Shown one piece after another: positions 15,448-33,637 of a stretch of DNA of 33,637 nt. The translations under genes and the position numbers were made by a program. A model generated the notes under the pieces. The model was not told the origin of the DNA and did not search any database. It saw only the letters and a list, made by a program, of their open reading frames with translations. Numbering within the stretch: the first letter of the stretch is position 1; each line of letters begins with the position of its first letter. This stretch comes from Comamonadaceae bacterium CG12_big_fil_rev_8_21_14_0_65_59_15 (GTDB taxonomy: Bacteria > Pseudomonadota > Gammaproteobacteria > Burkholderiales > Burkholderiaceae_C), in assembly GCA_002786915.1 (NCBI GenBank), contig PCUV01000047.1, positions 1 to 33,637 on the forward strand, read 5' to 3'.

Positions 15448-15464
15448 ACCGGAGGCACACCCCC

Positions 15465-16808: not shown

Positions 16809-16811
16809 AGG

Positions 16812-18263
16812 CTACGCCAGTCCCAACCGCTCCAGCTTCATGCGCAGGCCGGTGCGGGTCAGGCCCAGCTCTTGGGCGACCCGGCTTTTGTTGCCCTGAT
16901 GGCGCTGCATCTCGGCCTGAATGATCTGCGCCTCCAAGCGCTCCAGCCGGGTTTTGAGCAGTCCGGCGGCTTCATCGTCGGGCACATCCAGCGGCGTTTG
17001 CCCCAAAACCGCCACTGGCACAGCGGGCTGACGCACGCGCGGCGACAACAACTCTGCGCCCAGTTCCATGCCGTCGGCCAGTGCCAACGCCCGGCGGATT
17101 TCATTCTGCATTTCGCGCACGTTGCCGGGCCAACTGTGCTGGCGCAGCAAGTCAAGCGCTTCGGGGGTGAACTTGCGCCCGACCAGCGGCGCGTTCTTCA
17201 GCAGGTCCGCCACGATCAGCGGGATGTCTTGCGCGCGTTCGCGCAGCGCCGGCAAATACAGGATAATGCCGGCCAGCCGGTAGTACAGGTCTTCGCGGAA
17301 ACGGCCGCTGACGACGTCGGCCTCCAGCTTGCGGTTGGTGGCGGCAATGACGCGCACATTAACGGCCACCGAGCGCGTGTCGCCCAGCGGACGGATCACG
17401 CCGTCCTGCAACGCCCGCAGCAACTTTACCTGAAACGCGGGCGACGTCTCGCCAATCTCGTCCAGGAACAAGGTGCCGCCATCAGCCTGCTGAAACAGCC
17501 CCAGGTGCGCTTCGGTGGCACCGGTAAAGGCACCACGCTTGTGGCCGAACAATTCGCTTTCGAGCAGGTTGTCGGGCATGGCGGCGCAGTTTTCCACCAC
17601 AAACGCACCGTCGGCGCGCTCGCTGGCGTAATGGATGGCGCGCGCCAGCAGCTCTTTGCCGGTGCCCGACTCGCCGGTGATCAGCACTGACAAATCATGC
17701 CGCGCCACCTTGTGCGCCAGCCGACAGACCTCGTTGAGCGGGCTGTCCACCGCGCGCAGCATCTTTTCGAACCCCGCCTTGGCCTTGGCCTGGTTGCGCA
17801 GGTCGGTTACGCGCAGCGCCAGTTGCTCTGGGCTGGTGCGCAGCTCCAGCGTGAGGCGCTGGTTTTCTTGCTGCAAGCGCCACAACTGGCCCGCGCCTTG
17901 CAGCGTCAACAGCAGTTGATCGGGGTGCCAGGGCTTCAGCAGATACTGCCAGATGCCGGCTTCGTTGATGCCGGTGATGATGTCCTCGGCCTCGGTGTAG
18001 CCCGACAAAATGAGGCGCACCGTGTTGGGCCACTGGGCGCGCACCTGACGCAAAAATTCGACCCCGGTGGTGCCGGGCATACGCTGGTCAGACACCACAA
18101 TCTGGATCGGCGCGCTTTCCATCAGCGCGTGCGCCGTCTGCGCAGAATCTGCGGTGAACACGTTGAAGTGCTCGTCGAGGGTGCGCCGCAATGACTCAAG
18201 CGAGCGCGGCTCGTCATCGACCAACAGCACGTTTAAGGGTGACAGTGGGTGGCTGGGGCTCAT
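16812..18263 (-). CDS. hoxA: Hydrogenase transcriptional activator HoxA (NtrC family)
   Basis: 483-aa sigma54-dependent activator. Receiver domain at residues 10-125 with phospho-acceptor D59 (VVSDQRMPG); AAA+ domain with Walker A GESGTGKE near residue 195, the sigma54-contact loop GAFTGA intact, and GTLFLDEIGE; a Fis-type helix-turn-helix at the end (NKSRVAQELGLTRTGLRMKLERL). In Cupriavidus the unphosphorylated form is active and HoxJ turns it off without H2. The start ATG at 18263 overlaps the hoxX stop (ATGA), so hoxX and hoxA are coupled. The gene faces hoxJ, unlike the co-directional hoxABCJ order of Cupriavidus. Confidence 0.94.
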   Translation of the reverse strand: MSPSHPLSPLNVLLVDDEPRSLESLRRTLDEHFNVFTADSAQTAHALMESAPIQIVVSDQRMPGTTGVEFLRQVRAQWPNTVRLILSGYTEAEDIITGINEAGIWQYLLKPWHPDQLLLTLQGAGQLWRLQQENQRLTLELRTSPEQLALRVTDLRNQAKAKAGFEKMLRAVDSPLNEVCRLAHKVARHDLSVLITGESGTGKELLARAIHYASERADGAFVVENCAAMPDNLLESELFGHKRGAFTGATEAHLGLFQQADGGTLFLDEIGETSPAFQVKLLRALQDGVIRPLGDTRSVAVNVRVIAATNRKLEADVVSGRFREDLYYRLAGIILYLPALRERAQDIPLIVADLLKNAPLVGRKFTPEALDLLRQHSWPGNVREMQNEIRRALALADGMELGAELLSPRVRQPAVPVAVLGQTPLDVPDDEAAGLLKTRLERLEAQIIQAEMQRHQGNKSRVAQELGLTRTGLRMKLERLGLA

Positions 18264-19987
18264 GCAAGGTGACCTGTTGTGTCGCGATGCCGCGCCAGAT
18301 GGCGCGGTGTCCACGACGGCAGCGTTTTATAGACAAAATGATGCCGCGCCACATGGTAGCTGGGATCAAAGCCGTAAAAATTGCGCCGCATGTGTTCCAT
18401 CTCTTCGGCTCGATAAGCGGCCAGCGGTTTAGCAGCTTCAGCCTGCTCTCTTGCTTTGTTTTTAGTAGCTATCTGCGCTTGTATATCGGGCGCTAGAGCC
18501 ATATTTTGTGCTTGCTGTTTGACCGCAGCCTGAAATGCCGCCACCGTGCCGGGCAGACAGGCATCGGCAAAGCCAGTGGCCACCGCCGCCTGCGCGCTCA
18601 AAGGCTGGCGGTTGCGCATGATGGCGCGCGCGCCCTCATGCCCCACCCGGCGCGGCAGCGAATAGGTCCAGTATTCCGAGCCATACAGGTTGCCCATGTT
18701 CTTGTAATGCGGGTTGAGCAGGACGGCTTCGCGCAGCCACACCAGATCGGCCGCGCGGGCCAGAAAGCAGCCCCCTGCGCCGGTGTTGCCAGCCACCGCA
18801 GCGATGGTCAACTGGCGCTGGTTGCACAGCAATTCCAGCGCCAGGTCGTTCATCGCGTTGATGTTGCGCCAGGATTCGTCTGCCGCCGAACCGCCCTGGA
18901 TGCTGGCGGCCTCGATCACGTTAAGGTGGATGCCGTTGGACCAGAAATCATGCCCGCCGGTCAGCACCAGCACGGTGGTGGGCCGCTGCTGCGCCCAGAT
19001 CAGCGCCTCGCGCAGGCGCTCGCACTGGTGTGTGGACATGGCACCGTTGTAGAACTCAAAATGCAAAGTGGCCACGCCATCGGCTTCGTCGTACGCAATA
19101 TCTTGCCAGGTGTGGCCCTGCGCGCGCCACCAGTCAGGCAAGGGCAGCTCCGGCACATCCTCGCACTCGCGGGCAAACGCAAGCGTGGCGGGCAACTTGA
19201 TGCTGCCGGCGCGCTTGACGTGGCCGATCCACACCGCGCCATCGACTGTGGCGCGGCACAAGGCGGTTTCGCGCTGCACGATCACCGCACCCGGCGCGCC
19301 GCGCAACGTGTCTTCTGGCCAGGCGTCAAACAGATGGCAGGGTTGGTCAAACAGGTGGTCCGCCACGCCCGGAAAGCCGTCGGCCGCGCGAATTTTGCGC
19401 AGTACCGTGGCGCTTTCGTCGCGCTGCCAGTCGATGGCACGCTCTGGTTGCTTCATCAAAGGCTGCCATTGGGTGCTGGCGGGGCGCTGCGGCGTCCATG
19501 CAACCGAGGCCGGGTTTGAAGCGGTTGTACGGCTCGCCGCAAAACGCTGCACCGCCAGTAGTACGCAGCGGGTGGCGGCCTGCGTCACCTCATGGCGATA
19601 GACGCTGCCCTTGCTGGCCTGGCGCAGGTCAAAACGCTCACTGGCCCAGACCGGGCCGGCGTCCATGTCAGCTTCGGCCTGCAACACGGTCACGCCCCAC
19701 TGGGCCACCTGGAGCGTGATGGCCCAGTCCAGCGCCGACGGGCCGCGGTCACCTTCGATGCCCGGATGCACGATCAGGCAGATGTGTTGTGACCAGACCG
19801 ACTTCGGGATGGCGCGGCGCAAATAGGGTGCCACAACCAGGTCGGGTTGGTACAGCGTGACCGCCTCTTCGGTGACCGCGTCATTGATGTCGAATTCCAC
19901 CGAGGTGTCGTGGCCTTGCGCGCGCAGCGCGGCATCGATGCACTGGGTGAGGCTGTTGTAGGCATGGGTGAGCAGCAGGATGCGCAT
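18260..19987 (-). CDS. hoxX: Hydrogenase maturation factor HoxX/HypX
   Basis: 575-aa two-domain protein of aerobic hydrogenase maturation; HypX has been shown to make the active-site CO ligand from a formyl group via formyl-CoA. The N-terminal half is formyltransferase-like (VVAPYLRRAIP, then HPGIEGDRGPSALDWA); the C-terminal half is enoyl-CoA hydratase-like (TGGHDFWSNGIHLNVIEAA, VAGNTGAGGCFLARAADLVW) and ends with the family motif FYGFDPSYHVARHHFVYKTLP. ATG at 19987 (MRILLLTHAYNSLTQ) gives the family start. Residues about 493-508 are encoded by a dispersed mini-repeat. Overlaps hoxA by four bases. Confidence 0.94.
   Translation of the reverse strand: MRILLLTHAYNSLTQCIDAALRAQGHDTSVEFDINDAVTEEAVTLYQPDLVVAPYLRRAIPKSVWSQHICLIVHPGIEGDRGPSALDWAITLQVAQWGVTVLQAEADMDAGPVWASERFDLRQASKGSVYRHEVTQAATRCVLLAVQRFAASRTTASNPASVAWTPQRPASTQWQPLMKQPERAIDWQRDESATVLRKIRAADGFPGVADHLFDQPCHLFDAWPEDTLRGAPGAVIVQRETALCRATVDGAVWIGHVKRAGSIKLPATLAFARECEDVPELPLPDWWRAQGHTWQDIAYDEADGVATLHFEFYNGAMSTHQCERLREALIWAQQRPTTVLVLTGGHDFWSNGIHLNVIEAASIQGGSAADESWRNINAMNDLALELLCNQRQLTIAAVAGNTGAGGCFLARAADLVWLREAVLLNPHYKNMGNLYGSEYWTYSLPRRVGHEGARAIMRNRQPLSAQAAVATGFADACLPGTVAAFQAAVKQQAQNMALAPDIQAQIATKNKAREQAEAAKPLAAYRAEEMEHMRRNFYGFDPSYHVARHHFVYKTLPSWTPRHLARHRDTTGHLA
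18463..18509 (+). repeat. Dispersed mini-repeat, copy C (inside hoxX)
   Basis: Begins TAGTAGCTATCTGCGCTTG and ends in GAGCCATATTTTG. It aligns with copies A and B with a handful of substitutions. Lying antisense inside hoxX, it is read through in frame and encodes the Gln/Ala-rich stretch between the hydratase-like domain and the conserved C-terminal motif. Confidence 0.7.
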
Positions 19988-20013
19988 CGGCGGATTGTCC
20001 CCGGGATGCACGG

Positions 20014-20031
20014 ATACGCCACATGGCGTAT
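20014..20031. promoter_or_regulatory. Perfect palindrome upstream of hoxX
   Basis: ATACGCC-ACAT-GGCGTAT, 7-bp arms with a 4-bp centre, 27-44 bp ahead of the hoxX start codon. It could be an operator for a dimeric regulator or a hairpin in the leader of the hoxXA message. I could not find a convincing sigma54 (GG-N10-GC) promoter next to it. Confidence 0.4.
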
Positions 20032-20115
20032 TCCCCAATCGGGCGGCGCTTTCTACAGTCAAGGCGTCGCATCCAAGTAGCGCGATGTTCATCCACCCAC
20101 CCATCGGAGTTTTCC

Positions 20116-20334
20116 ATGCCAAGCTTCAGTTCTCGCCGCTTCACCCTCAAGACGCTCGCCGCCGCCGTCGCATTGACCACCCTGTCGGCACAGCCCGCTT
20201 ACGCCACCGACACAACCAGGGTCGGCATTCTGCACAGCTTGTCTGGCACCATGGTCCTGCGCGTGACACCTCAAATCCAAGGGCGTGGCGGACAAGGACC
20301 TAGACGAAAAATAAACCCCGTTTGGTCACAGTGA
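20116..20334 (+). pseudogene. Truncated urea/amide ABC transporter binding protein (urtA remnant)
   Basis: The first 47 or so residues (MPSFSSRRFTLKTLAAAVAL, signal peptide ending near QPAYA, then TTRVGILHSLSGTM) are the N-terminus of a UrtA-type periplasmic binding protein, which is normally about 400 aa. The similarity stops abruptly after LSGTM; an unrelated reading of 25 codons leads to a TGA at 20332. Nearly all of the ligand-binding protein is missing and no urtBCDE genes follow. It reads as a deletion remnant, divergent from hoxX. Confidence 0.7.
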
Positions 20335-20542: not shown

Positions 20543-21670
20543 TCAAAATCCACTTTGCCACCCCAGCTCAACACGCCGGTACTGGGTGTCTGGGCCTTTG
20601 CCGTCGCTGGCTAGCACCAGTTGCCAGCCGTGCCAGCCGGCCTGAAGTTTCAACGCGCGCCAATGCGGCTCCAGCGTCAGGCTCCAGTGGGGCGCTTGGC
20701 CACCTGTCGGGCCACTTTGCCAGCCCAGCCAGGCCTGGTTGATACCGGCCTGGCGCGACATCTGCAAGGTGAGTGCGGCATGGTTGCTGGCATCAGCGTT
20801 CAGCGTGCGTTGCACGTTCAGTTGCCAGCGCGGGTCGATATGGGCAGTGACCGCTTGCAAGGTTTTTTGGCCTTTCAGGTAAGGGGCGTAATCCAGATAA
20901 CCGTCGGGGCGGCGGCTGGTGTTGGCTGATACCAGCGCGTTGGCGTCGGTGGCCAGGTTGTTCCATTGCAGGGTGGAGGCCAGGTCGTCCACGCGCAGGG
21001 CCACCTGCCAGCCTGGCAGCGGCTGCCCTTGCACGGCCAGCGACATCGACGCACCGCTACCGGCGCTGCCCGATGCAGGCAAAAACCGCCCGGTGATGCC
21101 TGTGTTGGAACGCTGGCTCCACAAGTCAAAGTCATACGCGTTGGCGGCGGTGTAGTCCAGCTGTCCGCCCACTTGAGCCAGCCGCAATTGCGTGAGTTGT
21201 AGCAGCGCCAGGCCGGCTTGCCATTGCCACCGGCGGCTAGTGGCAACCGGCCACCACGGCGTGCCCAGCCGCAGCCCCCGGCCTGCCCAGCCCTGGCTTA
21301 GGGCCGCAAGCTGATAGTGGCGCTGTTCGGGCGGGTTGGTGTTGCTGGCTTGGGCAGCAGCAAGGGTCACCGCGTCGGCATTGGCGTCGAGCCAGGTTTG
21401 CGAGCGCACAACGGCTGCCACGCGCCAGCCGCTGGGGTGCTGGGCGTAGATCTCAATTTGCTGGTTTTGAAAAGCGCGCCCGGGGTTGTCGGCTTGGGAA
21501 AGATAGTTGGACCAATCGGGCTGGCTCAGCGCCAATACGGGCAGGTTCAACCCCACGGACTCCTGGGCTACAGTTGCGCCCAGCACCCAGGTTGTTGATG
21601 GTGCGGCCAGGCCCGGCACGCACCACAGGTAAAAAAACGCCCGCGCAAAGCGGGCGTTCAGGGTGGCCAT
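20543..21670 (-). CDS. Probable outer-membrane beta-barrel protein
   Basis: 375-aa protein with a probable signal peptide (RFARAFFYLWCVPGLAA) and a mature part made of alternating polar/hydrophobic strands with many Trp, Gln and Asn residues, closing with YRRVELGWQSGF; a C-terminal Phe after an amphipathic strand is the usual recognition mark for barrel insertion. No named family is recognised. It follows the 779-aa protein gene by 15 bp in the same direction and is probably co-transcribed, yet a strong terminator hairpin sits inside its first 14 codons. A role in anchoring or exporting its neighbour is inference only. Confidence 0.65.
   Translation of the reverse strand: MATLNARFARAFFYLWCVPGLAAPSTTWVLGATVAQESVGLNLPVLALSQPDWSNYLSQADNPGRAFQNQQIEIYAQHPSGWRVAAVVRSQTWLDANADAVTLAAAQASNTNPPEQRHYQLAALSQGWAGRGLRLGTPWWPVATSRRWQWQAGLALLQLTQLRLAQVGGQLDYTAANAYDFDLWSQRSNTGITGRFLPASGSAGSGASMSLAVQGQPLPGWQVALRVDDLASTLQWNNLATDANALVSANTSRRPDGYLDYAPYLKGQKTLQAVTAHIDPRWQLNVQRTLNADASNHAALTLQMSRQAGINQAWLGWQSGPTGGQAPHWSLTLEPHWRALKLQAGWHGWQLVLASDGKGPDTQYRRVELGWQSGF
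21631..21658 (-). terminator. Intrinsic terminator inside the start of the barrel gene
   Basis: On the - strand AACGCCCGC-TTTGC-GCGGGCGTT (21658 down to 21636) is a perfect 9-bp stem followed directly by further Ts (seven T in all, 21637-21631). It has every property of a Rho-independent terminator for the 779-aa protein gene, whose stop is at 21686. It overlaps codons 5-14 of the barrel gene, so transcription into that gene would be attenuated. Confidence 0.8.
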
Positions 21671-21685
21671 GATGGTCAGCGCAAA

Positions 21686-24025
21686 TCAGAACTGCTCATA
21701 GCTGCCATCGGTGTAGGTCAGCAGGTTCGTTTGCGGAGAAAACTCTCCTACCAGCACGCCGCCCTTGGTCAGCGGGAATGCCGACTGGGCCTGGTCCATC
21801 ACCAGCTTGATGCCGTCGGTGCTCTCCAAGGTCAGCACGTTGGCCGTCGGGCTGCTGCTGCCGCTGATGTTGATCGTCAAATTGCCTTGCACGTATTGGC
21901 CGCTCAAGCTTCCTGATGCGTAAGTACCAGCGTTGCTGTTGCTGCCCGTTAAGGTCAGCGCCAGCGTGGGCCGGTTGGTGATGCTCACGTTGCCGGCAAT
22001 CACCAGGCGGCTTTGCAACACGTTGCTGCTGCTGATGGGAAGCCGGGTGTTGAAGGTGCTGCGGTTCAGCGCCTCGGCAGTGATGGTGCCATCAAAAAAA
22101 CTGACACCGTTGCGCTGGATGCTGCCCGCAAAAGACACCAGCGTCGGACTGTAGTCAAAGCCCGAGGCATCCAGTTTGAAAGCACTGCCTTTGAGCTCAC
22201 CGTTAATGGTGCTGGCAGCAGACCCCCCGCTGAGTTTGAGCAACATTTCCTGGCTGCCGTCATGTGCCATATTGCCATACATGTCAGGACGGCTGGTTTG
22301 CACATACGACCCCGTGTCAAGCGCCAGGCGCGTTTCCAGTGCGCCCGCCTTGATCAGCTCGACCGAGCCCGACAAGGCGACTTTGTAGATGCCATTGGTT
22401 TGCGTTATCGCGCCAGACAGCGCCACGTTGTGTTTGTCACCCAGCACGGTGGCCGTCTGGTTGGGCCGGTACAGCCAGTTTTGCGACGCACTATCAAAAT
22501 AAGAGGTGCCGTTGTACTCAATAGTGAAGGCTGGCGACAGTTCTCCGCTCAAGCCGACGGCCGTGATATTGCCGTTGACATCACGCTGGGCAGTCAGTGT
22601 GGCGGCGTTGCCGGGGAAGGCCGCGCCGTAGTGGGTGCGGGCCTCGTTGTAAGCGGTGGGCGTGGCTTGGCAATAACTTGTGCCAGTGGGGCAACTTGTC
22701 GCTGCGGTAACCCATTGGCCGGTGACGGGGTCAGAGTAAGAATAACCCATGGTCTTGACGGTCAGATCGGCTTTACGCGTCATGGTATAGACGGTAAATT
22801 TATTGGGGTCGGTAGCGTCCGGGTGCAAGCGGATGCGGTACGACCAGCGCGCGCCGCAGGATTCACCCACGGTGGTGCATTGCTTTTGCGTGCCATCGGG
22901 GTTGGTCGGCTGGATCAGGTCGTCAAATTGCGCCGATGAACCGCAGGCCACGTAGCGTGCATCGGCCTTGCTGGTGGAGAGAATGTTGTAATTCGTATCG
23001 CTGTTGAAGCTGCAGCCGCCCAAAGATGGACCCATGTAAGCCGTGCCTGAGTAGCCAACCGGGTACGCAGGTGCGCCATACGACGTGTCATAAAAAGTCT
23101 TGCTTTGCACAAACGGTGCCGCCGGGTTCTGGATCACATCGGTATAGAACTGCGCCGCCTGCAGGGCCATGTCCAGCGCTTTGACGCTGCTACCGGCAAC
23201 CGGGGCGGTGCGCAATTGCAGGTCGTTGGCAACCGCTTGCAGCTCGGTTTGTAACGACAGGTCGGCGGCATCCAGTGCCATGGCATTGCTGCGCAGAGAG
23301 GTAACAAACGTCTTGGCCAATGCCAGCGGTTCGCTGGTATCCACGGTACCCGGCGTATAGGCTCCGATGTTGACCCAGATGCCGTCCGTCGCTGTTGGTG
23401 CGGTGGCAAAGCCCAGATAGTTCTTGTTGGCGATGTAGGTGGCAAGTTGGCCGCTGCTTTCCAGACTCGGGGCAAAAAACCGCCACTGCGAGGTGTCGGC
23501 TTTCCATGACCAGATGGTGCTGATGGACTTGCCCGCAGTGCTCAGGCTGGGAGCCAGACCGGTGTTGAGTTGCGACGGATTTTTGTTGTCGGCACTGGCT
23601 ACCAGGTTCCAGCCCTGCGCCAGATCAGACTCTTGCAAATTGGCAGCCACCGAACCTGGCGTGGGTGGCGCCGCTTGTAGATCGGTCAGAGTCGTGGCAG
23701 CCACGGCGTTGACCCAAAAGCCTTCCTTCGGTGCGATGCTGGCCAGCACGTCGTAGCCTTTGCTGGCCGCATAAGCGGTGAGTTGGTCGTTGCTCATGGA
23801 AGGTGCAAAAAACGCCCATTTGCCGCCAGAGGCGCTGGCTTTGTTCCACTTCCACACGGTGACTATTTTTGTTGGGTCAGCAAACCGGGTGGCCACGTCG
23901 ATAGCGCTGGTGTCGCTGTTGCCCACCAGATTCCAGTTGGCCAAAAGATTGAGCGTGGCGGCGCTGGCCAAAGCGGGCAACAACAAACCCGACAAAACCA
24001 AGCCACGAATTTTGTTGAACTGCAT
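21686..24025 (-). CDS. Large exported protein with N-terminal paired WNL/GFWVN module
   Basis: 779-aa protein. A Sec signal peptide (MQFNKIRGLVLSGLLLPALASA) is followed at residues about 25-215 by two related units: the first has NWNLVGN, VWKWN, KWAFFAPSM and EGFWVNA; the second has GWNLVAS, IWSWK, WRFFAPSL and GIWVN. A helical stretch (about 220-320) then leads to a Cys-containing part (SLGGCSFNSD, VACGSSAQ, CTTVGESCG) and a long beta-rich C-terminal region ending SYEQF. No named family is recognised. The same module ends the divergent 1291-aa protein. ATG at 24025, with AGGGAAA upstream, is preferred to the ATG 15 codons earlier. Confidence 0.8.
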   Translation of the reverse strand: MQFNKIRGLVLSGLLLPALASAATLNLLANWNLVGNSDTSAIDVATRFADPTKIVTVWKWNKASASGGKWAFFAPSMSNDQLTAYAASKGYDVLASIAPKEGFWVNAVAATTLTDLQAAPPTPGSVAANLQESDLAQGWNLVASADNKNPSQLNTGLAPSLSTAGKSISTIWSWKADTSQWRFFAPSLESSGQLATYIANKNYLGFATAPTATDGIWVNIGAYTPGTVDTSEPLALAKTFVTSLRSNAMALDAADLSLQTELQAVANDLQLRTAPVAGSSVKALDMALQAAQFYTDVIQNPAAPFVQSKTFYDTSYGAPAYPVGYSGTAYMGPSLGGCSFNSDTNYNILSTSKADARYVACGSSAQFDDLIQPTNPDGTQKQCTTVGESCGARWSYRIRLHPDATDPNKFTVYTMTRKADLTVKTMGYSYSDPVTGQWVTAATSCPTGTSYCQATPTAYNEARTHYGAAFPGNAATLTAQRDVNGNITAVGLSGELSPAFTIEYNGTSYFDSASQNWLYRPNQTATVLGDKHNVALSGAITQTNGIYKVALSGSVELIKAGALETRLALDTGSYVQTSRPDMYGNMAHDGSQEMLLKLSGGSAASTINGELKGSAFKLDASGFDYSPTLVSFAGSIQRNGVSFFDGTITAEALNRSTFNTRLPISSSNVLQSRLVIAGNVSITNRPTLALTLTGSNSNAGTYASGSLSGQYVQGNLTINISGSSSPTANVLTLESTDGIKLVMDQAQSAFPLTKGGVLVGEFSPQTNLLTYTDGSYEQF

Positions 24026-24111
24026 AAGATTTCCCTGTAATAAAAACCATGACAGTCTAGCAAACTGCATTTTTGAGTATGATGTGCTTTCACTATCCTT
24101 CAGGAGCAGTC
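24026..24111. promoter_or_regulatory. Divergent promoter region of the two module-bearing exported proteins
   Basis: 86 bp of A/T-richer sequence between two start codons pointing outward, each with a ribosome site (AGGAG at 24102-24106 on +, AGGGA on -). TATGAT at 24078-24083 is a plausible -10 box for the + strand gene, but no matching -35 box at good spacing was found. A shared regulator for both directions is a reasonable inference. Confidence 0.4.
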
Positions 24112-27100
24112 ATGAGCCCGAATTTCAGGTTTGTTACAAAGCAATGGCTTGTCGCAACAGCGGCAGTTTTTGGCTTGGCCAGTTCAAGCATTGCGCAGTC
24201 TCCCAATTGGACCCAGGTCACCGGGCCGGGCACGCCCGGTTATGGGGGGCTGGTGCGCTTTAGCCAGGGCACGCCCGATGGCACGGCTTGGATGATGACC
24301 GAGGGCGGGGGTCTTCACAAATCAACAGACAACGGTGCCACCTGGACTGCGTCGAACAATGGCTTGACCCATTTGCGCATCAAGGCAGGCATCATTAACA
24401 CCGCACGCACGCCTTATTCTCTCGATGCAGCCACTTATGGTGGCGGGGTATTCGATTCAGTTGATGCGGGCGCCACTTGGGTGGCCATGAACGACGGCCT
24501 GGGTTGCACTTACGTGACGGCGTTGACCGGCGTGGGGTCGCGGCTACTGGCCGGTACCGATTGCCAGAGCGCCAGTGGTGTGTATTTCATAGAAGCGGGT
24601 CAGGGCTGGACTTTGGCCACGGGTCTGCCGGGCAATGTGCGGGTGAATTCCATCAGCAGGGTCATCCATACCAACTTTGCTGTTGACTTCTTGCTGGCCA
24701 ACACCGATCAAGGCATTTTCAAATCAACAGATTCCGGTTCCACCTGGGCGGCGCTGCCCGCCAGCCCCAGCGGGCCCAATGGTGCGGTGGTGTACAACGT
24801 GCGCGCGCTGTTTTACACGCCCACCGGCACTAGCACCAACGTGACGCGTTTGCTGGCCACGGTGGAAGGCGCGGGCATTTTTGTCTCTGAAGACGGCGGC
24901 AACACCTGGACTGCCAGCAATACGGGCTTGCCGGCTAATCCGGTGCCCATGAGTGGCCTGCGTTTTGACAACAATACCAGCACCTTGTATCTGTCGCTCG
25001 ACGGTGACGGCACTTACAAGTCAAACGACCGGGGTGTAAGTTGGACCCTGGCCTTTGCGCAAAACGTGTTGCCATCGGTCAGAGGTGTGTCACCCAGTAG
25101 CCTCGTGGCGGGCAGGTTGGTGGCCGATACGTTAGCCGGTTTGCGGGTTAGCACAGACGGTGGTGCAACCTGGCAGGGTGGCGGTGCAACTGGCTTGCCC
25201 GGTGGCTGGACCACCAACCTGAAGATGGACAACGCCACGCCAACGCCCAATATCTACGCCTCAGCGGCGGACGGGGTTTACAAGTTCAACGGTACACAGT
25301 GGGCCAAAATGCCGCCCCTGCCCAACATGATGTACGGCCAGGTGAAGGTGCGCGGATCCACGGTGTATGCCACCACCAGCAACAAGGGGGTTTTCAAGTT
25401 CAATGCCAGCACCGGTGTCTGGAATGCCATCAACAATGGTTTGCCGACTAACTTGGTCGGCCGCAACCCCAAGTATGTGGGCGATGGCACCAACGCCAAC
25501 AATGCCTACCTGGGTCTGCAAGGCGATGGCATTTATTACACCAGCGACGCGGGTGCAAACTGGTCGCCGCGCAACACCGGTTTGAGCGGTAACGCGTTGT
25601 TCATCAACAGCATCGATGCTTATGGCGCGCTGATCTACATATCGACCGATGCGGGTGTCTTCAAAAGCACCAACGGTGGGCTGAACTGGGCGTTGGTGTT
25701 TGCGCCCAAAAACGCCGCTAACCAGACGGTGCCCAGTGGTGGTGTTTCTGCGGATCCGCTGACCCACAGCACGGTGTATGTCGGCGTCTTCAATACCACC
25801 GAACTAGGCGCATCGTTGCCGTCCAACGGTGTCTATAAATCCACCGATGCAGGTGCTACCTGGACGCAGTTGAGCGGCATGGCGGGCAAAAAGGTGCGTG
25901 ACCTCCGTATTGAGGGAGCCGACAACACGCTGGTTGCCAGCGTTTGGGAGCCCAGTGTCGATGGTGGCCTATTTACCAGTAACGACGGTGGTGCTACCTG
26001 GGAGCCGGCCAGCAATGGGCTCACCACGCACCTGGTCAACTCGGTCATGGCCACCGGTACGGGCGCTTATGCCGCCACACGCGGCGCTGGTTTGTTCAAG
26101 TTTGACGATACGTCATCGGTTTACAGCGAATGGAAGTATTTTGGTGCCTGGCTCGACAGCAATGGCGCGCTCAGCTACGGGGTTGACTTTGGTGTGAATG
26201 ACGCCAACCAGACCTTGTCGGGCACCTCGCTCAGTGGCAACGGTCAGTCAGCGGTCGGCGCGCTCGATACGGGCGCCAACCAGTGGAATGCCCACCTGCA
26301 GTTTGGTGCCACTGCGCCCGCGTCGAACACGGTTTTCACGGCGGTAACGACGCCCAAAACCGGCACCCCGACGACATCAAATTTCAGCTTGCGCGCGGCC
26401 GGCTACAACACCGCCGTGCCGACCAACATCCAGCCTTCGGGGGGTGCCAACGTAACGGCAGCGCAGCCCGTCTTTAGCTGGTCTGCCCCAGTGAGCGGCA
26501 GCGGCGCGTATTCATATCATGTGCAAGTCAGAACCGCAGGCATGAGCTTTACTCAGGTGTGGAGTTCGCCCAATGTTTCCGGCACCTCGGTCACCTACAA
26601 CGGTCCCGCCCTGGTGCCAGGAACAAGCTACCAACTCGACGTCCAAAGCCAGCAACACGACAGTCCGACCAATACCACCTATGGCGCAGGGGCATCCACC
26701 ACCTTCTGCTTTCAGTGCAGTGGTGGTGGCGGTGGTGGTACCACGACTGGAGCGAATTACGATCAGTTGTTTATTGGTCGCAACGCGGGCGCTAGCCCTG
26801 AAAACTTTGGACTGGGCGTGAGCTATCCAAGAGCCGCAAATGATGGCAAAGCCTCATACGCCATTGCGTGTCCTGGCGGTAAGTCGGCCTCTGGAACATT
26901 TGGTACTGCGATAGTGAATGGGGCAGGGCACGAGTGGTACAACGTTGATCTGGGGTTCACCCAACCCGCCACACCGTTTGACTGCACGTCAACCGTGACT
27001 TACTCTGATGGCACAACCAACGTGGCTACCCTGACGGTTGACAAGTTTGCGGCGGCGTTGGACTACCCTACGGCCATTTCTCTGGCGGCCAATGCCGATG

Positions 27101-27987
27101 TGTCAAGCTTTACATCTGTGAGCTTTACCAACCCGCTTGCTGGAGCGGCCAATACGCGGGTGCAGTCCAATTTATGGGAGGTCAATGGCACGGGTGGCTA
27201 TGGTCAACAGTTGTGGTATGTCGGCAATACAGCGTCACCTATGACTTACACCGGACCGGCGCTGACCCCAAATACCCATTACCAATTGGCGATCACCACG
27301 GTTGAGGGTACCAACGTCATGCACGCGGCGCAGTACTGGATCCCGTTTTGTTACCAGTGCACCGGCACCGGGGGCGGCGGGACGGGGAGCGGCACTGCTG
27401 TCAATGCGGTGTCTGGCTGGAATTTGCTGGGTAACAGCACAACCACTGCGATTGATGTGGCCAGTGCGTATGGCGATCCAGCCAAGGTCACCACGGTCTG
27501 GAAGTGGGTTCCTGCCACTAGCAAGTGGGCGTTTTATGCGCCAAGCATGACGCCGGCAAATCTGGCCACTTATGCCGCCAGCAAGCAATACGACGTGTTG
27601 ACGACCATTGTGGGTGGCGAGGGCTTCTGGGTTAATGCGGCCAGCACGTTCACCAGTACTTTGCCAGCTGGCACGGCTGTCAGCTCCGGTTCTTTTGCAA
27701 CTACTTTGGGGTCGGGTTGGAGCTTGATTTCAATTGGCGACAACAAAACTCCACGGGCATTCAATAATGCCCTGAGCCCAACGCCACCTAGCGCAGGTAT
27801 TGCTGCGGCATCAATACTGACTACTTTGTGGGCTTGGGACAGCGGCAAGTCGTCGTGGTATTTTTATGCGCCGTCTCTTGACAACTCCAATGGTCTTGCT
27901 GATTACACGTTCAGCAAAGGCTACCTTGACTTTGGCACCACAGGCACACTTGCACCAGGGGTTGGTTTCTGGGTCAATAAGCCATGA
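24112..27987 (+). CDS. Giant exported Asp-box protein with C-terminal WNL/GFWVN module
   Basis: 1291-aa protein with a signal peptide (to about ASSSIAQ). Ten Asp-box/BNR motifs of the form SxDxGxTW lie at about residues 70, 115, 204, 260, 303, 347, 477, 518, 576 and 622, which suggests beta-propeller blades as in sialidases and sortilin-like proteins. Then come FN3-like domains, two of them ending in FC-x-QC followed by Gly-rich linkers (about 872 and 1085), and a paired WNL...VWKW...FYAPS...GFWVN module (about 1098-1291). No catalytic residues were recognised. Its stop overlaps the gspG start (ATGA at 27984-27987). ATG at 24112 has AGGAG in front. Probably the cargo or surface part of the secretion system. 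Confidence 0.85.
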   Translation: MSPNFRFVTKQWLVATAAVFGLASSSIAQSPNWTQVTGPGTPGYGGLVRFSQGTPDGTAWMMTEGGGLHKSTDNGATWTASNNGLTHLRIKAGIINTARTPYSLDAATYGGGVFDSVDAGATWVAMNDGLGCTYVTALTGVGSRLLAGTDCQSASGVYFIEAGQGWTLATGLPGNVRVNSISRVIHTNFAVDFLLANTDQGIFKSTDSGSTWAALPASPSGPNGAVVYNVRALFYTPTGTSTNVTRLLATVEGAGIFVSEDGGNTWTASNTGLPANPVPMSGLRFDNNTSTLYLSLDGDGTYKSNDRGVSWTLAFAQNVLPSVRGVSPSSLVAGRLVADTLAGLRVSTDGGATWQGGGATGLPGGWTTNLKMDNATPTPNIYASAADGVYKFNGTQWAKMPPLPNMMYGQVKVRGSTVYATTSNKGVFKFNASTGVWNAINNGLPTNLVGRNPKYVGDGTNANNAYLGLQGDGIYYTSDAGANWSPRNTGLSGNALFINSIDAYGALIYISTDAGVFKSTNGGLNWALVFAPKNAANQTVPSGGVSADPLTHSTVYVGVFNTTELGASLPSNGVYKSTDAGATWTQLSGMAGKKVRDLRIEGADNTLVASVWEPSVDGGLFTSNDGGATWEPASNGLTTHLVNSVMATGTGAYAATRGAGLFKFDDTSSVYSEWKYFGAWLDSNGALSYGVDFGVNDANQTLSGTSLSGNGQSAVGALDTGANQWNAHLQFGATAPASNTVFTAVTTPKTGTPTTSNFSLRAAGYNTAVPTNIQPSGGANVTAAQPVFSWSAPVSGSGAYSYHVQVRTAGMSFTQVWSSPNVSGTSVTYNGPALVPGTSYQLDVQSQQHDSPTNTTYGAGASTTFCFQCSGGGGGGTTTGANYDQLFIGRNAGASPENFGLGVSYPRAANDGKASYAIACPGGKSASGTFGTAIVNGAGHEWYNVDLGFTQPATPFDCTSTVTYSDGTTNVATLTVDKFAAALDYPTAISLAANADVSSFTSVSFTNPLAGAANTRVQSNLWEVNGTGGYGQQLWYVGNTASPMTYTGPALTPNTHYQLAITTVEGTNVMHAAQYWIPFCYQCTGTGGGGTGSGTAVNAVSGWNLLGNSTTTAIDVASAYGDPAKVTTVWKWVPATSKWAFYAPSMTPANLATYAASKQYDVLTTIVGGEGFWVNAASTFTSTLPAGTAVSSGSFATTLGSGWSLISIGDNKTPRAFNNALSPTPPSAGIAAASILTTLWAWDSGKSSWYFYAPSLDNSNGLADYTFSKGYLDFGTTGTLAPGVGFWVNKP

Positions 27988-28463
27988 CCTTGAGTCAGCG
28001 GGCGCGCCCGCGCCCTGCCCATGCAAAGCGGCCGCAAGGCCGTTTTGCTGTTTTCGGTGCCCGTGTCCAACGCGGCTTTACCCTCATTGAGCTATTGGTG
28101 GTGATGGTCATCATCGGCTTGCTGGTGGGCTACGTGGGGCCGCGCTACTTTGCGCAGATTGGCAAGTCTGAGGTCAAGGCAGCGCTGGCGCAGATTGACG
28201 GGTTGGAAAAAGCGGTGGAGCAATACCGGCTGGATGTGGGCAAATTCCCCAGCAATGAGCAGGGCCTGAACGCCCTGTTTGTGCGCCCCACCAACGAGCC
28301 ACGCTGGCAGGGGCCGTACCTGAAAAAAATGCCGCCGCCCGACCCCTGGGGCAACCCCTACGTGTACCGCAACCCCGGGGCCAATGGCGACTTTGACATC
28401 GTGTCGCTGGGCAAAGACGGCGCGCCCGGTGGCGAGGGCGAAGCCGCCGACATCAGCAAATGA
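27984..28463 (+). CDS. gspG: Type II secretion major pseudopilin GspG
   Basis: 159-aa pseudopilin. The prepilin site is RG/FTLIELLVVMVIIGLLVGYVGPRYF with G31, F32 and Glu5 of the mature form at E36, followed by the hydrophobic helix. The C-terminal part has the GspG calcium-site region (NEQGLNAL...PWGNPYVYRNPGANGDFDIVSLGKDG). The 31-residue leader is much longer than the usual 6-10, rich in Arg and Pro; no closer start codon exists in frame, and the ATG overlaps the stop of the giant Asp-box gene. It overlaps gspF by four bases. It forms the shaft of the periplasmic pseudopilus. Confidence 0.95.
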   Translation: MTLSQRARPRPAHAKRPQGRFAVFGARVQRGFTLIELLVVMVIIGLLVGYVGPRYFAQIGKSEVKAALAQIDGLEKAVEQYRLDVGKFPSNEQGLNALFVRPTNEPRWQGPYLKKMPPPDPWGNPYVYRNPGANGDFDIVSLGKDGAPGGEGEAADISK

Positions 28464-29503
28464 CGCCTGCCGCATCAGCGCGCTTTGCGCTGCTGGTTTT
28501 TTGCCAACAACTTCTGTCCTTGCTGGAAGCCGGGCTACAGTTGGTCGAAGCGGTGGACACGCTCACCGAAAAAGAGCAAGACAGCCGCCAGCACAACATC
28601 CTGCAACAGTTACAAGCCAACTTGCAATCGGGTTTGTCGTTTTCACAAACGCTGGCGCAGCGGCCAGATATCTTTCCGCCGCTGTTTCAGGCCGCCATTG
28701 AGGCCAGTGAGCAAACCGGCGGTGTGGCCGTGGCGCTGAAGCGTTTTGTGGCCTATGAAACCCAGTTTCAAACCCTGCGCAACCGGCTGGTGGGGGCACT
28801 CATTTACCCGGCACTGCTACTGTCTTTGGGTGGCCTGGTGATTGCGTTTTTGCTGGGCTATGTGGTGCCGCGATTTAGCGTGGTGTTTATCGACCGGCTG
28901 GAGACCATGCCTTACCTGTCGGGGCTGGTGATTCGATTGGGGTTGACCATTTCAGAAAACCCGCTGACTGCCTTGCTGGCAACGGGTGGCACCCTGGGCG
29001 GCTTGATCTTTCTTCTGGCCCACCCGGCTACGCGCGCCTGGTTGACCGGCGTGGCCTGGCAGTTGCCCTGGCTGGGCGAGCGCATGCACCAGTTTGAGCT
29101 GGTGCGCTTGTACCGCGCCTTGGGCATGTTGCTGCGTGGCGGCATTTCGGCCGTGCGGTCGTTGCAGATGATTGCAGCCATGGCACCGCTGCGCTCGCGC
29201 CAGAGCATCGCCCGCGCCATTGATGCGGTCAGTGAAGGCCAGCCGATTTCTGTGGCGTTGCAACGCGAAGGTTTCACTACGGTGGTCAGCGACCGCCTGC
29301 TGGCTGTGGGCGAACGATCTGGTCAAATGGGCGACATGCTGGAACGTGCCGCCGACTTCATGGACGCCGAGCTGGAGCGCGCGGTCGATCGTGCCACCCG
29401 CCTCATGGAGCCGCTCATGATGGTGGTCATCGGCGTGCTGATCGGCGGCATCGTGATGCTGATGTATTTGCCCATTTTTGAACTGGCCGACAGCGTGGGC
29501 TGA
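28460..29503 (+). CDS. gspF: Type II secretion inner-membrane protein GspF
   Basis: 347-aa polytopic platform protein. Two GspF domains are visible: the first (FCQQLLSLLEAGLQLVEAVDTL to SEQTGGVAVALKRF) and the second (YRALGMLLRGGISAVRSLQMI to GERSGQMGDMLERAADF), each followed by membrane segments (LIYPALLLSLGGLVIAFLLGY; PLMMVVIGVLIGGIVMLMYLP), with a further one between. The N-terminal cytoplasmic lead of about 50 residues seen in standard GspF is missing. It would couple the GspE ATPase to pseudopilus assembly. Translation is coupled to gspG by an ATGA overlap. Confidence 0.93.
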   Translation: MTPAASARFALLVFCQQLLSLLEAGLQLVEAVDTLTEKEQDSRQHNILQQLQANLQSGLSFSQTLAQRPDIFPPLFQAAIEASEQTGGVAVALKRFVAYETQFQTLRNRLVGALIYPALLLSLGGLVIAFLLGYVVPRFSVVFIDRLETMPYLSGLVIRLGLTISENPLTALLATGGTLGGLIFLLAHPATRAWLTGVAWQLPWLGERMHQFELVRLYRALGMLLRGGISAVRSLQMIAAMAPLRSRQSIARAIDAVSEGQPISVALQREGFTTVVSDRLLAVGERSGQMGDMLERAADFMDAELERAVDRATRLMEPLMMVVIGVLIGGIVMLMYLPIFELADSVG

Positions 29504-29893: not shown

Positions 29894-30388
29894 GTGACTC
29901 TTTCATTTTTTAATGCACAGCGCAAATGCACCGGCTTTACCCTGGTGGAAATGGTCGTGGTGGTGGCCATTGTCGGCATCTTGGCCAGCGCGGCCATTCC
30001 GTTTGTGCAGTACGGCGAGCACCGCCTGAAAGAGCGCGAGTTGCGACACGCTCTGCGAGAGATTCGCAGCGCCATTGATGCCTACCAAAAAGCCAGCCTT
30101 GAGGGTCGCATCCCCCGCAAAGTAGATGGCAGTGGCTACCCGCCCGATCTGGCAGCGTTGACCGACGGTGTGGCCGATGCCAAAACACCCGACGCGCGCA
30201 AGATTTATTTTTTGCGCCGCATCCCGCGCGACCCCTTTGCCCCACCCGAAACACCAGACAACGACATGTGGGGTCTGCGCAGCTACGCCTCAGCGCCCAC
30301 CGAGCCCAAGGCGGGCGACGATGTTTTTGACGTCTATTCACTCAACCCCGGCACTGGCAGCAATGGCGCACCCTACCGTGACTGGTAA
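29894..30388 (+). CDS. Type II secretion pseudopilin
   Basis: 164-aa pseudopilin starting at GTG (29894), since no in-frame ATG lies before the prepilin motif. Cleavage expected at G14/F15 (CTG/FTLVEMVVVVAIVGILASAAIP) with Glu5 present. The globular part follows the GspG-like plan: LREIRSAIDAYQKASLEGRIPR, then RRIPRDPFAPPETPDNDMWGLRSY and FDVYSLNPGTGSNGAPYRDW. Its 3' end overlaps the next pseudopilin gene by 26 bp. It is a second GspG-like subunit or a minor pseudopilin; sequence alone does not decide. Confidence 0.85.
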   Translation: MTLSFFNAQRKCTGFTLVEMVVVVAIVGILASAAIPFVQYGEHRLKERELRHALREIRSAIDAYQKASLEGRIPRKVDGSGYPPDLAALTDGVADAKTPDARKIYFLRRIPRDPFAPPETPDNDMWGLRSYASAPTEPKAGDDVFDVYSLNPGTGSNGAPYRDW

Positions 30389-30779
30389 CTTGCTCCAACG
30401 GGGCTTCACCCTGATTGAGCTGCTGGTGGTGATGGCCATTATTGCCACGCTGCTGTCAATTGCCGCGCCACGTTATCTGCGCAGCGTGGATGACGCGCGA
30501 GAAGCGGCGCTCAAGTCCAGCCTGGCACAAATGCGCGAAGCCATTGACCAGTTTCATGCCGACCAGGGCAAGTATCCGCAGGCTTTAACAGATCTGGTGG
30601 ACAAACATTACCTGCGTGCCATTCCGGCCGACCCCATCACCGAAAGCACGCAAACCTGGCAATTGGTGCCGCTACCCGATGCCGCAGAGGCTGCAGAGGC
30701 CGCAGACACGGCCATTTACGATGTGCGAAGTGGCGCGCCGGGCGAATCGCGGCTGGGTCAGGCGTATGCCAATTGGTAG
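30363..30779 (+). CDS. Type II secretion pseudopilin
   Basis: 138-aa pseudopilin with cleavage at G14/F15 (LLQRG/FTLIELLVVMAIIATLLSIAAPRY) and Glu5 in place. The helix continues into AALKSSLAQMREAIDQFHADQGKYPQALTDLV, the GspG-type beginning of the globular domain; an Ala/Glu-rich loop and YDVRSGAPGESRLGQAYANW close it. The ATG at 30363 lies inside the previous gene; GTG at 30378 is an alternative start that changes only the leader. Overlaps the next gene by 14 bp. Confidence 0.85.
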   Translation: MAHPTVTGNLLQRGFTLIELLVVMAIIATLLSIAAPRYLRSVDDAREAALKSSLAQMREAIDQFHADQGKYPQALTDLVDKHYLRAIPADPITESTQTWQLVPLPDAAEAAEAADTAIYDVRSGAPGESRLGQAYANW

Positions 30780-31371
30780 AACGGGGCGCCGCGCACAGGC
30801 CGGGTTCACCTATATCGGGCTGCTGATTGCGGTGGTGTTTTTTGGTCTGGGTATGGTGGGCGCGGCGCGGCTGTTGGCCGCCACCGAGCAGGCCGAGCGC
30901 GAGGCCGAATTGCTGTTTATCGGGCACCAATTTCGCCAGGCCATCCAGAGTTATGTGCAAAGCGGACCGCGGGCCGGCAACTACCCGCCAACCTTGGCAG
31001 ACTTGCTGCAAGACAGCCGCTACCCCACTCCCCGTCGCCATTTACGCCGCCTGTTTATCGACCCGATCACCGGACTTGCCGACTGGGGCCTGGTCATGGC
31101 CCCCGAGGGCGGCATCATGGGTATCTACAGCCTGTCCGAGCGCGAACCCAGAAAGCGCGCCAATTTTGATGCCGTGGATGCTGATTTTGAACTGGCGTTG
31201 CAACGCCAGCAGGCGCAGGGCCAGGCACTTGCAAACGGTTTGCAGCCATTAACTGCCGCTGCACCGCAACCAACCCCGCTGAAAACTCAGTCGTACAGTT
31301 ACCGCGACTGGAAGTTTGTCTATCGCCCGCCCCTGACCGGCGGCGCGCGCCGGCCTGCTGGGGGCGGATAA
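30766..31371 (+). CDS. Atypical type II secretion pseudopilin lacking Glu5
   Basis: 201-aa protein with a prepilin-like start (RRAQAG/FTYIGLLIAVVFFGLGMVGAARLL), cleavage expected at G13/F14. Position 5 of the mature protein is Gly (G18), not the Glu almost always present; absence of Glu5 is a mark of tip subunits such as GspK. The body contains REAELLFIGHQFRQAIQSYVQSGPRAGNYPPTLADLLQD and LFIDPITGLADWGLVMAPEGGIMGIYS, a pattern seen in some betaproteobacterial PulG-like proteins. The tail is Gln/Pro-rich and ends in a Gly/Arg-rich stretch. Probably a minor, tip-proximal pseudopilin. Confidence 0.8.
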   Translation: MPIGRTGRRAQAGFTYIGLLIAVVFFGLGMVGAARLLAATEQAEREAELLFIGHQFRQAIQSYVQSGPRAGNYPPTLADLLQDSRYPTPRRHLRRLFIDPITGLADWGLVMAPEGGIMGIYSLSEREPRKRANFDAVDADFELALQRQQAQGQALANGLQPLTAAAPQPTPLKTQSYSYRDWKFVYRPPLTGGARRPAGGG

Positions 31372-31482: not shown

Positions 31483-33033
31483 ATGAAGCGCAAAAAGTTG
31501 CCCATTGGCATCCAGACCTTCGCCAAGATGCGTGAGGCGGACTACTACTACGTGGACAAGACCGGTTTTGCCGTGGATTTGGTGGATGGCGGCTCGCATT
31601 ACTTTCTGTCGCGCCCGCGCCGCTTTGGCAAAAGCCTGTTTCTGGACACCCTGAAAGAGCTGTTTGAAGGCAACGCGCCGCTGTTCAAGGGACTGGCAGC
31701 AGAACAGCGCTGGAACTGGGCCGTCAAATACCCGGTGCTGCGCATCAGCTTTGGCGGCGGCGTGCTGGGCTCGGTGGCGGATTTGAACCAGAGCTTGCAC
31801 CAGCAATTGACTACCTTGGAGCAGCAATACCAGTTGCCCGCGCAATACCCGGACCACCGCAGCCGCTTCAAAGACCTGATTGCCCGCATCACCCAAGCCA
31901 GCGGCCAGCGTGTGGTGATTCTGGTCGATGAATACGACAAACCCATACTGGACCGCATTGAAGACCCGGCCATTGCGCTGCAAATCCGCGAGGCACTGAA
32001 AGACTTTTATTCGGTCATCAAGGACAGCGACGCCTACGTCAAGTTTGCCTTTTTGACCGGCGTGTCCAAATTTTCAAAAGTCAGCTTGTTTTCTGGGCTG
32101 AACAACCTCAAAGACATCACACTCGACGCACGCTACAGCGCCATTTGTGGTTACACCGAAGCCGATGTTGACAGCGTATTTGCCGCTGAACTGCCGGGGC
32201 TGGATCGGGCGCAAATCCGCCAGTGGTACAACGGCTACAACTGGCTGGGCACGCCGGTGTATAACCCGTTTGACCTGCTGCTGTTGTTTGACAAACGACA
32301 GTTTCAGCCGTTCTGGTTTGAAACGGGTACCCCCACGTTTTTGCTCAAGCTGCTCACCCAGCGCCAGCAATTTGTGCCCGACCTGGAGCGCATCATGGCG
32401 CCAGAAGCGCTGCTGGCTACGTTTGACGTGGACAACATCCCCACCGAAGCGTTGATGTTCCAGGCCGGTTACCTGACCATTGAAAGCGCGCGCATGATTC
32501 CCGGGCGGCTAGAGCTGACGCTGCGCTACCCCAACCAGGAGGTGCGCGCCAGCCTACACGACAGCCTGCTGCAAGAGCTTAGCGGCAACCGCTCCGTGCC
32601 AGGTCGCCAGATCAGCCGTCTGTACGATTTGCTGGTAGCTAATGACCTGAGCGGCCTGCAAGCCCTGATCACCGCCTTTTTTGCCAGCATCCCCACCGAC
32701 TGGTACCGCAACAACCCCATTGCCCAATATGAAGGTTACTACGCCAGCGTGTTCTACAGCTACTTTGCCGCACTGGGCCTGGACATCACGGTCGAAGACA
32801 GCAGCAACCAGGGGCGTCTGGACATGGCGGTGCGCTTCAATGGCCACATTTACCTGTTTGAATTCAAGGTGGTGGAGCTGGTGCCCGAGGGCAAAGCGCT
32901 GGCGCAGCTCAAAGCCAAAAACTACGCGGCCAAGTATCTGGCCAGCGGCGAGCCGATCGACCTGATCGGCGTGGAATTCAGCAAAGAGGCGCGCAACGTG
33001 GTGGCGTTTGAGGTGCAGCGGGTCAACCCGTAA
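31483..33033 (+). CDS. AAA-ATPase-like protein with PD-(D/E)XK nuclease domain
   Basis: 516-aa protein of the AAA-ATPase-like/DUF1703 group. N-terminal IGIQTFAKMREADYYYVDKT and RPRRFGKSLFLDTLKELF (Walker A GKS near residue 49), Walker B VVILVDEYDKPIL near 145; C-terminal QGRLDMAVRFNGHIYLFEFKVVE (from about residue 444) has the D and ExK of a PD-(D/E)XK nuclease fold. These genes are scattered, often multicopy, and of unknown role; some authors suspect a mobile or defence function. It sits between the pseudopilin genes and gspE with 111 bp before it, and looks like an insertion into the cluster. Confidence 0.85.
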   Translation: MKRKKLPIGIQTFAKMREADYYYVDKTGFAVDLVDGGSHYFLSRPRRFGKSLFLDTLKELFEGNAPLFKGLAAEQRWNWAVKYPVLRISFGGGVLGSVADLNQSLHQQLTTLEQQYQLPAQYPDHRSRFKDLIARITQASGQRVVILVDEYDKPILDRIEDPAIALQIREALKDFYSVIKDSDAYVKFAFLTGVSKFSKVSLFSGLNNLKDITLDARYSAICGYTEADVDSVFAAELPGLDRAQIRQWYNGYNWLGTPVYNPFDLLLLFDKRQFQPFWFETGTPTFLLKLLTQRQQFVPDLERIMAPEALLATFDVDNIPTEALMFQAGYLTIESARMIPGRLELTLRYPNQEVRASLHDSLLQELSGNRSVPGRQISRLYDLLVANDLSGLQALITAFFASIPTDWYRNNPIAQYEGYYASVFYSYFAALGLDITVEDSSNQGRLDMAVRFNGHIYLFEFKVVELVPEGKALAQLKAKNYAAKYLASGEPIDLIGVEFSKEARNVVAFEVQRVNP

Positions 33034-33067: not shown

Positions 33068-33637
33068 ATGATCGATTCCAGCATCGTGCGCCAAGCATGG
33101 CAACTTGCCCACCGGGAGTCCCGCACACTGGACGCCGTGTTGGCTGCGCAATTGAGCTTGGGTAGCGCGGATGTATTGCTGCAACTCGGTCAAGCATTTC
33201 GCTACCCCATTTGCCACTTGGCGGTCGATACCAGCCTGAGCCCCGACCTGGCCACCTTGAACCTGCCCGACTGCTGCCGCCTGTCGGCGCTGGTGGTGAC
33301 GCGCCAAGGCCAGCGCGTGCTGCTGCTGGCCAACCCCACCGATGAAGCCCTTCAGCGCTGGGCCGATGCCAAAGGCATTGCGGTGGATGCGCGCGAGCTG
33401 GTGCTGGAATCTGAATTGCTGGACCTGCTGGCGCGCCTGGAGGCCGCCACCTCCGCCCTGCCGGGCATTCTGGACCACGGTTTTACCGAGGCCGCGCGCC
33501 AGTCGGGCGTAGAAGAAATATCGTTGGCGCGCATCGACGAAACCACCAGCCCGGTGGTGCGCCTGATCAACTCCACGCTGTTTGACGCCATGGGCGCGGG
33601 CGCCTCAGACATCCACCTGGAAGCCGCCGCCAGCGGC
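33068..33637 (+). CDS. gspE: Type II secretion ATPase GspE, 5' part
   Basis: First 190 codons of a GspE/PilB-family ATPase, open to the right edge. The start MIDSSIVRQAWQLAHRE opens a short N1 (GspE-N/MshEN-like) domain; residues about 165-187 (ETTSPVVRLINSTLF, then GAGASDIHLEA) are the characteristic entry to the N2 domain (P-V-L-N ... ASDIH-E). The Walker motifs lie beyond the window. It would power pseudopilus assembly through GspF. The ATG at 33068 is 34 bp after the AAA-ATPase gene, so despite that insertion it may still be transcribed with the cluster. Confidence 0.9.
   Translation, partial: MIDSSIVRQAWQLAHRESRTLDAVLAAQLSLGSADVLLQLGQAFRYPICHLAVDTSLSPDLATLNLPDCCRLSALVVTRQGQRVLLLANPTDEALQRWADAKGIAVDARELVLESELLDLLARLEAATSALPGILDHGFTEAARQSGVEEISLARIDETTSPVVRLINSTLFDAMGAGASDIHLEAAASG

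Follow-up and report, generated by a model that had tools for sequence, protein, structure and literature searches.

A paired terminal module on diverse, mostly predicted-exported proteins as a candidate cargo label for one type II secretion branch

Contig PCUV01000047.1 from Comamonadaceae bacterium CG12_big_fil_rev_8_21_14_0_65_59_15 (33,637 nucleotides, numbered along the forward strand and called the window here; its genome is G000) encodes two divergent proteins, A and B, which share a paired module at opposite ends of the chain and lie beside genes of a type II secretion system (T2SS). With roughly even confidence, we read this module as a folded, portable cargo label, predicted to be recognised in the periplasm by a co-inherited T2SS branch of PulG/OxpG/TklG-like type; the recognition itself we infer. 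Several observations support this reading: the half-units come in twos or fours, the module mostly occupies a terminal position, its passengers are unrelated, and its genes adjoin the machine, which belongs to one branch. More tentatively, it could be generalised to a transferable, folded address domain that sits at either end of dozens of unrelated proteins and is read by one T2SS branch; the related paired C-terminal family of a second phylum might feed another exporter. A conserved, portable and confidently modelled domain on many unrelated candidate cargos beside one T2SS branch would make recognition testable with a single domain, and a candidate reader could be sought among few components. 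If the reading is true, the likely exoproteins of these uncultured bacteria could be listed from sequence.

A tandem module at either end of predicted exported proteins

Two halves of ~90 residues in tandem make up the module (~190 residues in all), and a half-unit profile finds exactly two copies in A and two in B, with domain scores of 90-105 bits. Protein A (779 aa; minus strand, 21689..24025, stop at 21686-21688) is laid out as a signal-peptide-like N-terminus, the paired module directly behind it (residues 24-220), a helical stretch (231-299) and a beta-rich passenger, for which the Pfam scan returned no match; a structure model of the whole protein reached a predicted local distance difference test score (pLDDT) of only 73.8. 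Its first half-unit (residues 24-107; 23705..23956, minus strand) scores 89.6 bits and its second (residues 132-220; 23366..23632, minus strand) 100.7 bits. Protein B (1291 aa; plus strand, 24112..27984, stop at 27985-27987) begins with a signal-peptide-like N-terminus followed by Sortilin/BNR-type propeller repeats and fn3, and closes at its extreme C-terminus with the paired module, ending in WVNKP: the first half-unit (residues 1097-1176; 27400..27639, plus strand) scores 90.5 bits, and the second (residues 1197-1290; 27700..27981, plus strand; 104.6 bits) is followed by a Pro and the stop. An initial annotation of this DNA had described a two-half module of ~190 residues at these two ends, a description which is upheld, with a wider spread than was reported; it had also proposed a shared promoter region: the starts are indeed divergent, 86 bases apart (24026..24111), but a sigma-70-like site sought there was not found.

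Alignment of the four halves gives 19 invariant columns, including six Trp-containing positions of the motifs first quoted for the module, all of which are present (WNL, DVA, VWKW, KWAF-APSM, YDVL and EGFWVN in the first half; DNK-P, LWAW/IWSW, W-F-APSL, Y--F and WVN in the second). Between A and B, the first half-units share 55% identity, and a module holds ~10 Trp, eight of them invariant across 59 modules. The initial annotation had recognised no named domain; likewise, Pfam and NCBIfam scans of A and B, and a Pfam scan of 12 modules, gave no match to the module, and no characterised domain matches it. An AlphaFold2 model of the module is confident (pLDDT 96.8, predicted template modelling score 0.91). 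No significant match to it was found in the PDB, and the low-ranking Foldseek matches include CBM65 at a non-significant E of about 1.

At E <= 1e-3, 492 proteins of the database match the B module and 371 the A module; together with 55 half-unit matches in G000 (E <= 1e-3, truncated ones included), these numbers exclude a chance origin of the similarity. We examined the best 120 of each set, 240 in all, and found two half-units in 231 proteins and four in nine. The module is N-terminal in 119, C-terminal in 87 and mid-protein in 25, with the nine four-unit proteins as a further class, proportions which are biased by the use of one C-terminal and one N-terminal query and by a limit on protein length. 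Among the C-terminal proteins, exactly one residue follows the module in 85/87, and the final residue is Pro in 80/87 (NKP 50, NHP 16, NRP 7). These chains mostly end in GFWVN-x-P, one residue past the module, and do not have a short tail of the GlyGly-CTERM/PEP-CTERM kind, with its signature motif, membrane helix and basic cluster; no NCBIfam CTERM model matches A or B at E <= 1. A signal-peptide-like N-terminus was called, by a crude rule applied to Met-starting proteins, in 102/115 N-terminal, 59/81 C-terminal, 16/24 mid-protein and 9/9 four-unit proteins, and by the same rule in 14/720 internal control segments.

The passengers are diverse. Precomputed Pfam assignments include PF00082, PF00413 and PF01447/PF02868, which we take to be S8, M10 and M4 proteases, along with PF00079, PF00415, PF15902/PF02012 and PF00188 (presumably serpin, RCC1, Sortilin/BNR and CAP) and PF07603, PF09826, PF00034 and PF11999 (presumably DUF1566, a propeller, cytochrome c and the ice-binding DUF3494). 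G000 alone holds 28 paired-module profile matches at E <= 1e-10, some partial. Truncated copies, some with stops or lacking the N-terminal part, occur in L022 (G000 contig C73:145000-160000), L025/L192 (C55) and L028 (C76), near complete copies and contig ends (L numbers are our locus handles, G and C those of genomes and contigs); this looks like a recombining multigene family or a reservoir of partial copies. The module-bearing records drawn from the part covered by 52 loci of a pattern scan are mostly betaproteobacterial metagenome-assembled genomes (MAGs), with two titled only Proteobacteria or proteobacterium, one Desulfobacterales and one Bacteroidetes. The module was found in 2/399 genomes of the window's family, and 2/299 genomes of a phylum sample matched, namely G000 and one with a weak match of 20.5 bits.

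Linkage to one branch of type II secretion systems

Directly downstream of B lies gspG, encoding the major pseudopilin (27984..28463, plus strand; TIGR01710, 169.4 bits against a cut-off of 88.85), the start of which overlaps the stop of B (ATGA), so that the module genes do stand beside gsp genes, as was first noticed. The overlap is kept in 5/5 loci checked (the window, L044, L051, L072 and L031), and in the remaining linked genomes module genes sit at other places in the T2SS cluster.

The machinery was searched for in 27 genomes (G000, G666 and 25 reached via named loci), 26 of which hold the module, G714 being the one that does not. A profile of the marker pseudopilin pil1 scores 157-325 bits in 16 of the 27 and <= 43 bits in the other 11, and a TPR-secretin profile exceeds 300 bits in 16/27, some of these matches (G693, G697, G698 and one G666 copy) coming from an additional T2SS that is not part of the branch; a GspE profile (14 genomes) adds G697, G698 and G704 as branch members. 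Altogether, the module-adjacent kind of T2SS is present in 17/26 module genomes (G702 on gspG alone), and the module is therefore not found mostly in organisms that lack type II secretion. The enrichment near gspG and gspE that the initial annotation had asked about is pronounced: in 16 of these 17 genomes, the exception being G698, a module gene lies near T2SS genes of the same contig, where ~2.2/17 would be expected by chance in a 40-kb window (the observed value of 16 was set by hand in this comparison, and adjacency in G704 consists of a half-unit truncated where the retrieved stretch stops). Leaving out G697 and G702, whose machinery was first noticed through adjacency, the count is 14/15. 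No module gene lies beside the four further T2SS clusters of module genomes (G666x, G693x, G697x, G698x).

In a 48-row tree of six genes (GspG, GspF, GspE, secretin, pil1 and pil2), 14 module-adjacent machines together with those of G698 and G704 fall on one side of a branch supported at 99 by the Shimodaira-Hasegawa-like approximate likelihood ratio test (SH-aLRT). The other side holds 32 machines, made up of 28 loci from module-negative genomes and G666x, G693x, G697x and G698x. G698 and G704 were entered without a linkage status, and G704 was later found to be adjacent; none of 500 label shuffles was as clustered as the observed labels. An earlier 28-row tree gave the same split, with G696, G698 and G704 labelled as linked ahead of any known adjacency. 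The 28 module-negative loci, hand-picked from the 93 genomes of the family that have a pil1 relative but no module, contain no module gene in the retrieved stretch of up to 20 kb (0/28). Across the family, a pil1 relative occurs at E <= 1e-20 in 95/399 genomes. Outside the two module genomes the best family scores are 228 bits for pil1 and 823 for GspE, as against 232-293 bits for whole pil1 and 884-908 for GspE in branch members outside the seed alignments; the gspE of G000, cut by contig ends, fails to pass in the family GspE search.

Label, anchor or binding module?

How might such a label work? Proteins with a Sec signal peptide would first be exported to the periplasm, a step for which the N-termini argue, and module and passenger would fold there. 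Docking of the module at the tip of the pseudopilus, at the platform or in the vestibule of the secretin might follow, and the pseudopilus would then drive the cargo out through the TPR-bearing secretin; the module might afterwards also hold the protein at the cell surface. That the T2SS takes up folded substrates from the periplasm is described in passages of PMC5449463. G000 also encodes the secretins GspD, PilQ and an MshL-like one (below its cut-off), besides the branch-matching secretin on contig C74, and a separate label for a second system would therefore make sense.

Several results weigh against this reading. Nine of the 26 module genomes (G693, G699, G700, G703, G705, G706, G707, G710 and G712) have no branch machinery detected by pil1, secretin or GspE; all nine are titled MAG, and an assembly gap may account for them. 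A tree of the modules scatters ten of them, drawn from seven of these genomes, among the others (8 changes against a shuffled mean of 9.4), except that three of the ten form their own group; this pattern fits incomplete MAGs or mixed bins without proving either. The six-gene tree is a quick IQ-TREE run with SH-aLRT and no bootstrap, several of its rows are incomplete and some branches long; module-adjacent loci supplied the seeds of the marker alignments; the family searches scored no more than the best 8, 9 or 3 candidates in each genome; and the pil1 gap between the branch and the rest is narrow (232 against 228 bits, with 175 for a contig-cut branch copy in G666). The module is, moreover, mid-protein in the 25 of 240 proteins noted above.

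A sister family in Desulfobacterota, related to the half-unit with a profile probability of 99.7%, comprises 228 matches, of which 119 were examined (118 paired, 104 C-terminal), and 12/297 Desulfobacterota genomes match; with betaproteobacterial queries, and on contigs several of which are short, no T2SS gene was found near the sister family in 24 loci (0/24). At the Desulfobacterota loci L291-L310 the paired halves are shorter (WNLIS...IWTY...YDP...GYWI), and often 7-9 residues follow the second half. In a Bacteroidetes protein from a MAG (L082:2-1594), a weakly related paired unit precedes a sorting domain (Por_Secre_tail) of the type IX secretion system (T9SS); it bears the motifs GWDIISLPV...GYWLKF and GWNLVGS...GYWIK, and is possibly a distant branch of the same superfamily. 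The wider module family, then, is not bound to the T2SS and need not sort, and a role after secretion, as an anchor or in ligand binding, is therefore a real alternative.

The main rival, although we consider it less likely, is a surface anchor: a non-covalent retention domain like SLH or CWB2 that would bind a surface polymer after export, with the T2SS reading something else in its substrates. Repeated units at either end of a protein recall the placement of SLH and CWB2, the terminal Desulfobacterota family without T2SS genes found nearby in 24 loci is as an anchor would predict, and the position of the Bacteroidetes unit, adjoining a T9SS sorting domain, suggests that it acts once secretion is complete. 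However, neither the single branch of adjacent machines, distinct from other T2SS (second T2SS of the same genomes included), nor the gspG overlap shared by five loci would follow from an anchor alone. Less probable still is an aromatic-rich extracellular module binding carbohydrate, particle or matrix and shuffled among surface proteins, the T2SS adjacency meaning only that the exporter's main substrates are encoded beside it. The conserved Trp content, the CBM65 match (low-ranking and not significant) and passengers such as proteases and ice-binding domains suit such a role, but binding modules are not usually limited to the last residue or to the first position after a signal peptide, and the single residue behind the module in 85 of 87 C-terminal proteins speaks against it. 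That a mobile, recombining multigene family merely hitch-hikes, sitting by chance near the T2SS of a single lineage group and functionally independent of it, recalls the truncated and contig-end copies in G000 but is very improbable: the adjacency holds in 16/17 genomes and on both arms of the branch, and neither the module genes involved nor their positions in the cluster are the same throughout.

The initial annotation had suggested a sorting, anchoring or ligand-binding unit for this secretion system. The tie to the system is strengthened by the enrichment and by the single branch, and weakened by the nine genomes and the 24 Desulfobacterota loci; sequence does not tell the three roles apart. 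The cargo label nonetheless remains the reading that we favour.

Neighbouring genes and known systems

Downstream of B the cluster runs from gspG through gspF and three pilin-like genes to an AAA/PD-(D/E)XK gene and the 5' part of gspE; the gsp and pilin genes delimited below are on the plus strand. The gspF-like gene (28460..29503) encodes a platform protein of 347 aa matching PF00482 and, at 222.8 bits, falling below the TIGR02120 cut-off of 424. The pseudopilin and marker gene pil1 lies at 29894..30388. The second pseudopilin, pil2, is listed as an open reading frame at 30168..30779, with a true start probably at ~30370 and a prepilin motif near 30396; the third pilin-like gene, pil3 (30616..31371 as listed), has a GFTYIG N-terminus with the motif near 30796, and scores 18.9 bits with TIGR02523 (cut-off 52.2). 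The N-terminal part of gspE (33068..33637) is cut by the contig end at 33637 and for that reason stays below the NCBIfam cut-off. GspG thus identifies a T2SS in the window, together with GspF and the N-terminal part of GspE, and a secretin (PF00263) of matching kind is on contig C74 of the same genome. In relatives (L113/L114, L115, L116) gspF, gspE and secretin are joined in one cluster, and in L115, L123 and L131-L138 three further pilins and a secretin share the cluster.

Inside the T2SS cluster (31483-33033) sits the gene for an AAA-ATPase_like and PDDEXK_9 protein, whose relatives on other G000 contigs (L023, L025/L192, L027, L029, L185; 65-94% identity over the matched part) adjoin module genes in 4/5 of those loci. 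A second 5' part of gspE (L192:2-601, minus strand, on C55), ~86% identical over 169 aa to that of the window, lies beside module genes, and G000 may hold two copies of it. Next to A, a 375-aa protein (20543-21670) ends in Phe and has no Pfam match; its relatives adjoin A homologues in L033, L034 and L035, and we guess that it is possibly an outer-membrane barrel. Further away (11693-20122), NiFe-hydrogenase genes are accompanied by those for a PAS sensor kinase, for a sigma-54 response regulator and for a formyltransferase/enoyl-CoA-hydratase fusion, a set which recalls a regulatory cluster of the hox/hyp type.

SLH and CWB2 surface anchors occur as repeated units at either end of many different proteins; their Pfam models match neither A, B nor the 12 modules, and the hosts here are Gram-negative. 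The C-terminal sorting domains of the T9SS are portable, folded terminal domains that many passengers carry and a machine dedicated to them recognises. Our module, on the label reading, would be alike in this but differs in being N-terminal as well and in being carried mostly by Betaproteobacteria with T2SS genes; neither the models for these domains (Por_Secre_tail PF18962, CHU_C PF13585) nor NCBIfam models of that kind match A or B at E <= 1. The GlyGly-CTERM tail is tripartite. In passages of PMC3237569, GlyGly-CTERM and rhombosortase form a many-to-one terminal signal system of Proteobacteria in which a T2SS is generally encoded as well, and the authors saw no evidence there that rhombosortase marks any T2SS subclass; that signal is a short tail, unlike the module here, which stands beside one T2SS branch. 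Terminal sorting domains are, then, a known kind (T9SS domains, GlyGly-CTERM, PEP-CTERM), and our literature search found no published report of a conserved portable domain beside one T2SS branch. The closest machine is the Pul (PulG/OxpG/TklG) T2SS of Geobacteraceae, without which the multicopper oxidase OmpB is not secreted (PMC3543383, citing Mehta et al. 2006). No such module is mentioned in the passages of PMC3543383 on which this comparison draws, and we apply the names OxpG and TklG to the pilins here by analogy. In those passages GspG/PulG is accompanied by extra pseudopilins, and the clusters described here are likewise built of gspG, gspF, gspE, a secretin and three further pilins.

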